Source of the DNA: Paraburkholderia kururiensis JCM 10599 = LMG 19447 | Lineage (GTDB): Bacteria; Pseudomonadota; Gammaproteobacteria; Burkholderiales; Burkholderiaceae | Assembly: GCF_003986935.1 (NCBI RefSeq) | Contig: NZ_RJZE01000014.1 | Span: forward strand, 62,001-126,000 | Direction of reading: 5' to 3' | Length of the DNA: 64,000 nt | In this document: piece by piece, positions 24,926 to 31,397 of the stretch | How positions within the stretch are numbered: the first letter of the stretch is position 1 | Layout of the letters: each line of letters begins with the position of its first letter | Translations under genes and position numbers: made by a program | Notes under the pieces: model-generated | Told to the model about the DNA's origin: nothing | The model's database searches: none | Seen by the model: only the letters and a program-made list of their open reading frames with translations

Positions 24926-26182
24926 TCATTCACCCGCGACGGTTTCGTATTCCCCCACATACCGTGCGCGCGGACGGATGAGCCGGCCGTCCGCCGCCTG
25001 CTCCATCGCATGCGCGATCCAGCCCACCGTGCGCCCCACGGCGAACAGCGTGAACGCGGCGCCGTGCGGCAACCCCAACACGCGCTCGATAGCGGCAAGC
25101 GCGAAATCCACCGTAGGAAAGACGCCTGTCGTCTCGTGGACGGCGCGCGCCAGTGCGTCCACCTCGCGCATCGATGAGCGCGCGGGCGCGCATTCGGCCA
25201 GCAGTTCGAGCAGCAGCCGCGCACGCGGATCGCCGTCCGGATAGAGCGGGTGCCCGAAGCCCGGCAGGACCGCGGCGGGGCGCTCGGGCGCAGCCGTCGC
25301 GCTGCCGTGCTCATGTGCGGCGAGCCGGGTGGCGAGATAGCGGTTCAGGTCGCCGGCGCGCGCGGCTTCGTCGAAGAGGGCGGCGACGCGCGCTGTCTCG
25401 CCGCCGTGACGCGGCCCGGCCAGCGCCGCGAGCCCGCCCGCCACGGCGCCGAACAGATGCGTGCCCGTGGACGTAATGCAGCGCACCGTGAACGTGGACG
25501 CGTTGAGTTCGTGATCGGTGCAGAGCACGAGCGCTGCACGCAGCAGATCGGCTTGCTGGCGATTGCGCACGCCCCAGGCCGCGGCAAGCTGGCGATGCAG
25601 CGGATCGGCCGACGGCGCCGCCGAGATCATCGCCGCCGCCACGAAGCGCAGCACGAGCGCTGCCGTATCGAGCTGCGCGTCGCGGCCAAGTGCCCAGACG
25701 CGCGGCATCTGCGCGGCTGCAGCCGGCAACAGCACGAGCGCGCGATCGAGCGGCGTGCTGTCGGCCCATAGCTTGAGCCACGCCGCCCATTGCGCGGCGG
25801 CGAGCGGAGCGGCGGGCGCCTCTGCAATGCGGTGCGGCGTGCATTCCCAAAGCAGCGCGGCGACGTCTTCGAGCGTCGCGGTGCGCGCGAGCGCGGTGGC
25901 GTCGCGGCCGCGATAGAAGAGCCGGCCGTCGGCGATCAGCGAGATCGACGATTCGAGCACCGGCACGCCCCAGTCCAGCACCTTCTGCGCGACCTTGCCG
26001 GCGCGCTTGCCGTCGGCCTTGCGCCGCGCGAGACGGCGCACGTCGGTTGCGGCGTAGCGGCGCCGTTTGCTCGCCGGGTCGGGCGCGGATTGCAGCATGC
26101 CGCGGCTCACGTAGGCGTAGAGCGTGGCAAGGCTCACGCCGAGCGCGTCGGCGGCTTCGGATGCGGTCATATAGCTGGACAT
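24926..26182 (-). CDS. HTH-citrate synthase fusion protein
   Basis: A 418-aa protein with an N-terminal MerR/excisionase-type helix-turn-helix (TASEAADALGVSLATLYAYV, residues 6-25) and a citrate synthase-fold domain from about residue 70. The catalytic residues appear intact: His259 in GPRHGGE, His311 in GFGHPLYPDGDPR and Asp359 in PTVDFALAAIERVLG. DHELNASTFTVR (223-234) is also conserved. It may therefore be an enzyme, a DNA-binding sensor of acyl-CoA or oxoacids, or both. It is divergent from a CoA transferase gene across a 158-bp gap with a perfect palindrome. It is not the housekeeping gltA, which lacks the HTH. No strong ribosome-binding site is seen. Confidence 0.88.
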   Translation of the reverse strand: MSSYMTASEAADALGVSLATLYAYVSRGMLQSAPDPASKRRRYAATDVRRLARRKADGKRAGKVAQKVLDWGVPVLESSISLIADGRLFYRGRDATALARTATLEDVAALLWECTPHRIAEAPAAPLAAAQWAAWLKLWADSTPLDRALVLLPAAAAQMPRVWALGRDAQLDTAALVLRFVAAAMISAAPSADPLHRQLAAAWGVRNRQQADLLRAALVLCTDHELNASTFTVRCITSTGTHLFGAVAGGLAALAGPRHGGETARVAALFDEAARAGDLNRYLATRLAAHEHGSATAAPERPAAVLPGFGHPLYPDGDPRARLLLELLAECAPARSSMREVDALARAVHETTGVFPTVDFALAAIERVLGLPHGAAFTLFAVGRTVGWIAHAMEQAADGRLIRPRARYVGEYETVAGE

Positions 26183-26220
26183 GGCGGCCTGGGCGGAAAA
26201 ACCGGAGAAATCGATATATG

Positions 26221-26237
26221 TTGATTATCTTAATCAA
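26221..26237. promoter_or_regulatory. Palindromic operator candidate between the HTH-citrate synthase and CoA transferase genes
   Basis: TTGATTA and TAATCAA are separated by three bases, in a short AT-rich island within GC-rich DNA. It lies 39 bp from the regulator-like start and 104 bp from the CoA transferase start, well placed to control both. Confidence 0.55.
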
Positions 26238-26340
26238 GATTGATCGGTGTGGTCGGGAAATCTAGACTCGTTTCACTTCGGTTGTTTCGCCTCACCTTTT
26301 TCGACCCACTCACACCGCCGGATCCGCCCGGCTGCCGATC

Positions 26341-27759
26341 ATGACGCCTCGTCTCGCTCTGGAACATCTGTGGTCTCTTGCCGGATGCGATCCTGCTGCG
26401 CTCGATTCGATCCATCTGGACGGCAACGACCCGGGCTTGCCTTCGGTTTATCGCGTGGGCACGCTGGCCGCCTCCACGATCGGTGCCGCGGGGCTTGCCG
26501 CAGCGGAATGCTTCCGGCTGCGCACAGGTTGCCGCCAACGCGTGGAGGTGGACGTGCGACGCGCGCTCGTCGCATTTCGCAGCGAGCGCTATCTGCGCGT
26601 GAACGATGAGTTGCCACGCGAGCTGCGTCACCCTGTGACCGGCTTTTACGCCACGCGCGATGGCCGCTGGATTCAGCTGCACACGAACTTCCCGCACCAT
26701 CTGCACGGTGTGCTCTCGGTTCTGGGCTGCGAAAACAGCCGCGAGGCGGTGGCCGAAGCGATTCGCGGCTGGGATGGCGCCGCGCTCGATACCGCGCTGG
26801 CAGACGCCGGCCTCTGCGCGGCGCTGGTTCGCTCGCCGCGCGAATGGGCCGCGTTGCCGCAGGCGAGAGCCATCGCGGACCTGCCGCTCATCGAGATCGA
26901 ACGCATTGGCGATGCGCCGCCGCAGCCGCCGGGCCGCGGTGGCGCCGACCGGCCGCTTGCAGGCGTGCGCGTGCTGGACCTGTCGCGGATCATTGCCGGA
27001 CCGGTGGCGGGCCGCGCGCTCGCGCATCACGGAGCGGACGTGCTGCTCGTCAACGGTCCGCATCTGCCGAACATCGAACCGCTCGTGATCGACAACGGTC
27101 GCGGCAAGCGCTCGGCCACGCTCGATCTGCGCGAAGCGGCGGCGCGCGATACGTTGCTCGCACTCGCTTCGGAGGCCGACGTGTTTCTTGAGGCGTATCG
27201 CCCCGGCGCGCTCACGGCGCGGGGTTTCGGGCCGCAGGCGCTCGCGCAGCAGCGGCCCGGCATCGTGTACGTGTCGATCTGCGCTTACGGACACACCGGG
27301 CCGTGGGCCAACCGGCGCGGGTTCGACAGCCTCGTGCAATCGGCGAGCGGCATCGTGTGGACGGAAAGCGGCGCGGTGAGTTCGCATCGTGCGGGCGGCA
27401 ACCAGCCGTTCGACGCGCCCCGGCATCTGCCGTGTCAGGCTTTGGATCACGGCACCGGCTATCTTGCTGCGTTCGGCGCGATGGCCGCGCTCGCGCGGCG
27501 CGCGAAGGAGGGCGGCAGCTGGCACGTGCGCGTTTCGCTTGCGCAGACGGGGCGCTGGCTACAGTCGCTGGGGCAGATTGAAGACGGTTGGCGCACGCCC
27601 GACGTGACGTTCAGCGACGTGGCCGACTGTCTCGAAACGACGGACTCGCCGTTCGGGCGTGTGTGCGCGGCGGCGCCTGCGGAGCGGTTGTCGGAGACGC
27701 CGCCGTTCTATGCCCGCCCGCCTGTGCCTATCGGGACAGACGAACCGCGCTGGAGCTGA
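26341..27759 (+). CDS. CaiB/BaiF-family CoA transferase, circularly permuted
   Basis: A 472-aa family III CoA transferase with its parts in swapped order. Residues 36-180 resemble the usual C-terminal portion (RVGTLAAS, QRVEVDVRRAL, GRWIQLHTNFP, EWAALPQARAI). RPLAGVRVLDLSRIIAGPVAG, normally the N-terminus, starts near residue 204. The sequence then runs through YGHTGPW and RRGFDSLVQSASGI to ALDHGTGYLAAFG, where Asp369 matches the catalytic aspartate, and VSLAQTG. It would move CoA between carboxylic acids; the substrates are unknown. It is divergent from the HTH-citrate synthase fusion, which may regulate it or supply a CoA thioester. The ATG at 26341 follows a weak ribosome-binding site. Confidence 0.85.
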   Translation: MTPRLALEHLWSLAGCDPAALDSIHLDGNDPGLPSVYRVGTLAASTIGAAGLAAAECFRLRTGCRQRVEVDVRRALVAFRSERYLRVNDELPRELRHPVTGFYATRDGRWIQLHTNFPHHLHGVLSVLGCENSREAVAEAIRGWDGAALDTALADAGLCAALVRSPREWAALPQARAIADLPLIEIERIGDAPPQPPGRGGADRPLAGVRVLDLSRIIAGPVAGRALAHHGADVLLVNGPHLPNIEPLVIDNGRGKRSATLDLREAAARDTLLALASEADVFLEAYRPGALTARGFGPQALAQQRPGIVYVSICAYGHTGPWANRRGFDSLVQSASGIVWTESGAVSSHRAGGNQPFDAPRHLPCQALDHGTGYLAAFGAMAALARRAKEGGSWHVRVSLAQTGRWLQSLGQIEDGWRTPDVTFSDVADCLETTDSPFGRVCAAAPAERLSETPPFYARPPVPIGTDEPRWS

Positions 27760-30188: not shown

Positions 30189-30536
30189 GTTGTTGTCCTC
30201 CTGCCAGTTTGTCGAAAGGGCTTCGAATGCACTGTAGGAGACTGCGCCGCGCGATTGGTTCCCTGGGTTCGGCTGATCGCTTGCGATCGATGTGGGGCTT
30301 TCGCGCGGTTTGTTGGTCGCCGTCAAATGCCGGGCCATGCGCTTCATGTGCGTCAACTGACTCGCTCGGTACGCGACATCCGCAGAAGGGCAAACGGACC
30401 GCAGTGCGGTCCGGGCCGCGGCGGTGACGCGCCGACCGGGGGATCGGAGCGCCACCGCCGTCACCACAGAAAGGCGTGACTGGGATGTCATGCCGTTTCG
30501 GGGCAGTGTGCGGTGCGGGGGCACCGCCGCGCGGGT

Positions 30537-31397
<861 letters not shown>

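Follow-up and report, generated by a model that had tools for sequence, protein, structure and literature searches.

Metabolic enzymes that also act as regulators are known: PutA, BirA and NadR are trigger enzymes, or moonlighting metabolic regulators. In these proteins, as in Caulobacter CitA (PMC7083601), a metabolic-enzyme fold serves regulation, and the same would hold for the HTH-citrate synthase fusion analysed here (hereafter HTH-CS). However, CitA has no reported DNA-binding head, whereas HTH-CS has a dedicated fused helix-turn-helix (HTH) and a family-wide predicted operator. Compared with PrpC and type II citrate synthases, HTH-CS has the same fold, triad and substrate arginines, but it carries an extra N-terminal HTH, scores under the family cut-offs, is associated with the family-wide predicted operator, and has some relatives that lack the triad. 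It resembles the MerR family by its N-terminal HTH, which passes the gathering scores of PF00376 and PF12728, and by an inverted-repeat predicted operator with a near-local target. In contrast to MerR proteins, its sensor would be a citrate-synthase domain, not a metal or drug domain, and conservation suggests that its half-site array lies upstream of, and over the −35 of, a proposed promoter with a 17-bp spacing, not within a 19–20-bp spacer. With the PrpR regulators (Fis-type in enterics, GntR-type PA0797 in Pseudomonas, and M. tuberculosis PrpR) it shares a position beside prp genes in some Gammaproteobacteria, but it belongs to an unrelated family and its putative sensor derives from the synthase of the pathway. 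The divergent gene encodes a protein (hereafter CoAT) with the Rossmann-like half and the catalytic Asp of family III CoA-transferases (CaiB/BaiF; Rv3272, formyl-CoA transferase, SUGCT), except that its halves are swapped, with an overlapping repeated segment.

The window is the whole 64,000-nt stretch of Paraburkholderia kururiensis DNA that was analysed. The features of the locus are as follows, in window positions.

24926–26182, minus strand: gene of the HTH-citrate synthase, putative regulator (418 aa, P0001; ORF, Pfam, AlphaFold model)
26018–26173, minus strand: HTH_17/MerR DNA-binding head, residues 4–55 (Pfam, family alignment)
24968–25972, minus strand: citrate-synthase domain, residues 71–405 (Pfam)
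25406–25408, 25250–25252 and 25106–25108, minus strand: catalytic triad codons H259, H311 and D359, respectively
Within the citrate-synthase domain, minus strand: arginines R91, R320, R384, R403 and R405
26206–26245, no strand assigned: conserved predicted operator block of alternating TTGAT/ATCAA half-sites (88 distinct intergenic sequences)
26221–26237, no strand assigned: core palindrome TTGATTA-TCT-TAATCAA (family core TTGATT-N5-AATCAA)
26221–26244, plus strand: three-box predicted operator TTGAT-N7-ATCAA-N2-TTGAT (one of two perfect genome copies)
26240–26268, plus strand: proposed CoAT promoter (conservation; −10 kept when boxes decay)
26341–27759, plus strand: gene of the permuted family III CoA-transferase (472 aa, P0002; ORF, Pfam, model pLDDT 84)
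26341–26946, plus strand: CoAT N-terminal half, residues 1–202, the later part of the canonical enzyme (PF02515 160–325)
26947–27756, plus strand: CoAT C-terminal half, residues 203–472, the canonical N-terminal part (PF02515 1–204)
27445–27447, plus strand: codon of the CoAT catalytic Asp369

The first-pass annotation had described the 418-aa protein as a MerR/excisionase-type HTH joined to a citrate synthase whose His259, His311 and Asp359 form the catalytic triad, and both points held. The Citrate_synt match over residues 71–405 had an E value of 4e-67, and the HTH head passed three Pfam cut-offs (28.5 bits for a cut-off of 28.2 with PF00376, 25.8 for 21.6 with PF13411, and 30.7 for 27 with PF12728). 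The three triad residues align with the GPxHGG, GFGH and PxVD motifs of solved citrate synthases. The AlphaFold model (pLDDT 81) has a citrate-synthase fold, predicted fairly confidently, and its nearest solved folds are the 2-methylcitrate/citrate synthases 3o8j, 6s87 and 1iom (E=4.5e-14 and TM 0.76 by target length for 3o8j, Foldseek). The best NCBIfam score, 155.3 bits, is far under the cut-off of 421.3 (TIGR01800).

CoAT had been described as circularly permuted with its catalytic Asp369 retained. The aspartate is indeed invariant: nine permuted relatives all have it, the most distant at 33% identity. As for the permutation, the swapped domain order stood: residues 206–409 match PF02515 1–204, and residues 37–177 match PF02515 160–325. 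A clean rotation did not stand, since the halves overlap and profile positions 160–204 are covered by both. The arrangement looks from its sequence like a tandem duplication followed by loss, which is preferred over clean rotation because the halves are both swapped and overlapping. A weak blastp match was also found between residues 100–188 and canonical residues 267–376. In sequential structural alignments of the model, the best matches covered about 215 residues, about half of it, as expected from the permutation; a PDB search with the N-terminal half alone as query gave no matches. This protein is a structural oddity separate from HTH-CS and merits a crystal structure. More distant permuted CoATs (33–36% identical) were found in L150, L156 and L157, each behind other genes; those of L150, for a 3-hydroxyacyl-CoA dehydrogenase and a beta-propeller-like product, hint at acyl-CoA breakdown. 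In an uncultured Paraburkholderia (Vsou) symbiont (L134) and in the closely matching L040 (G008), a frameshift splits the permuted CoAT gene, and HTH-CS is intact.

The palindrome TTGATTA-3-TAATCAA, reported earlier in an AT-rich gap between the two genes, was found exactly at 26221–26237, and the GC content of the surrounding block (26206–26245) is 25%, versus 66% for the window. This 40-bp block proved almost invariant in 88 distinct intergenic sequences, whereas its flanks vary freely; the consensus is AAATCAATATATATTGATTATCATAATCAAGATTGATT. Judged from these sequences, such near-invariance is far beyond chance. The window holds no second exact copy of the palindrome, and the genome no other copy at one mismatch or less. 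The three-box pattern has two perfect copies in the 7.5-Mb genome, versus 0.0008 expected, and both adjoin HTH-CS genes (here and on contig C63) that are only 35% identical to each other. A conserved predicted operator at its own gene, with few other sites, is the pattern of an autoregulating local factor. The palindrome is not a single operator specific to the pair: it belongs to an array of TTGAT half-sites used family-wide. The proposed CoAT promoter consists of a −35 TTGATC (26240–26245, within the third box), a 17-bp spacer and a −10 TAGACT (26263–26268), and matches the consensus at eight of 12 positions; scanning the gap for consensus promoters detected none.

The divergent pair is conserved. 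In a genome scan of Paraburkholderia, related Burkholderia and Trinickia, it was present in 79 of 80 loci, and in the single exception (L113) the contig end cuts the locus. Among 200 sampled Burkholderiaceae genomes, 39 have the HTH-CS regulator (counted present at E <= 1e-120), and in 38 of these CoAT adjoins it on the same contig. Lack of co-occurrence and lack of palindrome conservation had been named earlier as refuting signs; both checks favoured the first-pass idea. CoAT without the regulator is commoner, however (95 versus 39 of the 200 genomes), and an obligate two-gene module was rejected on this ground. Of the self-regulated module first suggested, self-regulation of the pair is supported, along with its conserved predicted operator. 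Farther afield, pairs were found outside the family but within the order (L211), and also in a different class (L202); most of the distant HTH-CS relatives adjoin genes other than CoAT.

Natural deletions at this locus separate the operator from either gene. In G009 the transferase is lost and the whole operator is kept before the regulator, and in G002 and G015 the regulator is lost and a damaged operator is kept. Over 130 loci, at least two boxes were present in 104 of the 107 with the regulator, versus six of the 23 without it, part of the box loss in the latter being due to the deletion itself and not to point decay. In one genus where both states occur, six regulator-less loci have point-mutated boxes, and the −10-like CTAGACT is unchanged. 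Boxes thus usually decay after loss of HTH-CS, while the −10 of CoAT stays. There were exceptions: L230 and L233 lack the regulator, yet keep most of the block, possibly as a result of recent regulator loss, and in L231 the regulator is present and the boxes are mutated. The tree of loci has 11 changes of regulator state. Phylogenetically independent pairs (4–5 concordant, none discordant) are consistent with a link between regulator and boxes, with a p value (about 0.06–0.125) that taken alone does not reach the usual significance threshold.

The HTH-CS family extends far beyond the HTH-CS/CoAT pair. A profile search found full-length members in alpha-, beta- and gammaproteobacteria, class labels that rest on kinship codes and named loci. 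When one member was kept per 60% identity, 23 lineages were obtained, and boxes were counted within 70 bp upstream of the start. At least two TTGAT boxes were present in 15 of the 23 lineages (mean 2.17 per lineage). By comparison, 244 control upstream regions taken from these loci had a mean of 0.09 boxes, and 1.2% of them had two or more. With dinucleotide shuffles, at most five of 23 lineages attained two boxes. Ranking of all pentamers placed ATCAA/TTGAT first, tied with CTTGA (17 of 23 lineages each), the top-ranked pentamers being mostly overlapping pieces of the same boxes. Plain citrate synthases have almost no TTGAT boxes. In the family alignment, TLYAYVSRG, a helix of the HTH, is almost invariant. 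In L153, L158 and L209, other genes (MFS/SDR type) precede the regulator in an operon, and two copies of TTGATT-N5-AATCAA are found farther upstream, at the operon promoter. The motif is therefore tied to likely targets and not to the start codon.

Nearby searches did not find a TTGAT operator in the distant L204, L207, L223 and L227. One sub-branch (L204, L206, L227 and L228) has lost nearly all catalytic residues and kept the TLYAYVSRG helix; upstream of its genes, too, the TTGAT operator was not found. A cation-efflux gene adjoins HTH-CS in L204, and also in L223.

Residue conservation bears on whether the family senses or catalyses. R91, R320, R384, R403 and R405 are nearly invariant across it; the last four match the substrate-carboxylate arginines of citrate synthase, or their neighbours. 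H259, H311 or D359 is lost in L147, L154, L155, L200, L204, L206, L207, L227 and others, and the arginines are mostly retained in members lacking these residues. Sensing is for this reason better supported as the common function: a carboxylate site kept without catalysis would be the pattern expected of a ligand sensor. The 418-aa protein, with its intact triad, may also be an enzyme.

Gene neighbours suggest what the ligand could be. Some gammaproteobacterial HTH-CS genes face prpB, and in L219 prpC comes next (both confirmed as NCBIfam equivalogs); 2-methylcitrate is for this reason a good candidate for the signal. This compound is reported to act as coactivator of Fis-family PrpR, and in P. 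aeruginosa it was deduced to serve as inducer (PMC9765439). In Alphaproteobacteria, HTH-CS relatives face a plain citrate synthase. Two such synthases, in presumed Alphaproteobacteria (L214:4810–5958 and L218:4097–5182), carry a Glu where the catalytic Asp would stand (TNVEFY) and a Gly following the substrate His. The second HTH-CS of the genome (G000:C63:59002–60252; L147, L159), which carries the other perfect three-box operator, is without catalytic His and Asp and faces a two-cupin gene and a DHDPS-type aldolase operon. About 15 kb from it, a citryl-CoA-lyase-like gene adjoins a canonical family III CoA-transferase (G000:C63:75510–77494; L148).

Our preferred reading, to which we give a probability of about two in three, is that HTH-CS is an autoregulating one-component regulator whose citrate-synthase domain would sense a carboxylate and which probably represses CoAT. 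A methylcitrate or citrate synthase would have gained a MerR-type HTH and so become a one-component transcription regulator. Its dimer would bind the intergenic array of TTGAT half-sites (core TTGATT-N5-AATCAA) and control both its own gene and the divergent CoAT. Since the last box reaches over the −35 proposed for CoAT, the default action would probably be repression, the CoAT promoter and its own promoter both being blocked; it is this position of the box that points to repression of CoAT. The citrate-synthase fold undergoes a known open-to-closed movement. Oxaloacetate, citrate or 2-methylcitrate, bound as the di- or tricarboxylate ligand, would close the citrate-synthase domains, alter the distance between the two HTH heads and free the DNA. 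DNA binding by the 418-aa protein, its ligand, repression and the CoAT substrate are what we infer from the features observed computationally, namely architecture, pairing, predicted operator, family-wide use and decay upon regulator loss.

Other readings share part of this evidence. HTH-CS could be a true trigger enzyme, condensing an acyl-CoA with oxaloacetate and repressing the divergent gene when substrate is lacking, so that flux would be coupled to transcription. Triad and substrate arginines are intact here and in most TTGAT-bearing members, and the model fold matches 2-methylcitrate synthases, but the score far under the NCBIfam cut-off (155 versus 421 bits, TIGR01800) and the several lineages that retain arginines and HTH without the triad make this rather unlikely. 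A possible parallel pointing the same way comes from Caulobacter, where two extra citrate-synthase genes lie side by side: complementation of an E. coli gltA mutant succeeded with CitB but not with CitC, compared here as an extra citrate synthase (PMC7083601). The MerR-type HTH would also suit an activator, with the array recruiting or re-shaping the promoter and the ligand-bound form turning CoAT on. Boxes just upstream of and over the proposed −35 fit the position of a class II activator; the inferred spacer is 17 bp, however, versus 19–20 bp in classical MerR promoters, and regulator-less loci retain an open CoAT gene and its −10, which makes more sense for a gene that functions unaided by the regulator. 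We hold activation, too, to be a doubtful option.

A −35-like hexamer falls on one of the boxes, which might suggest that the TTGAT block only marks a divergent promoter, or is bound by some unrelated global regulator, the fusion protein being a plain enzyme. This is very improbable, given that the motif follows HTH-CS across three classes and beside unrelated neighbours, shifts to operon promoters where HTH-CS lies inside an operon, is nearly missing from plain citrate synthases, and occurs in only two perfect genome copies, both at HTH-CS genes. A carboxylate-sensing, autoregulating repressor stays the reading we prefer for this locus.

Beyond the pair, we lean towards the view that HTH-CS is a so far undescribed transcription factor family spanning the phylum, with the citrate-synthase fold as sensor and with lineage-dependent targets, among them the methylcitrate cycle, citrate synthase isozymes and permuted CoA-transferases. 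On the same balance, most members would share TTGATT-N5-AATCAA, read by TLYAYVSRG, and the signal would probably be 2-methylcitrate or oxaloacetate. Descriptions of HTH-citrate synthase fusions were not found in the literature searched, whose coverage of subscription papers is incomplete. Within the same coverage none was found of permuted family III CoA-transferases, nor of MerR-type propionate regulators. Enzyme-derived regulators are already known; it is the citrate-synthase-derived family and its operator that appear new, within this incomplete coverage.

Enzymes turned sensors have so far been known one at a time. Here, an enzyme of the TCA or methylcitrate cycle seems to have turned into a family of transcription factors, with one DNA code across alpha-, beta- and gammaproteobacteria. 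Databases score the members as citrate synthases. Should our reading hold, many of the "extra citrate synthases" that these genomes carry would be regulators, HTH-CS would be a candidate factor for control of the methylcitrate and related CoA-thioester pathways in many species, and the operator sequence would make HTH-CS regulons directly readable.

Elsewhere in the window, at 30476–31397, lies a long low-complexity stretch that reads as poly-Gly on the minus strand and as His/Arg-rich repeats on the other.
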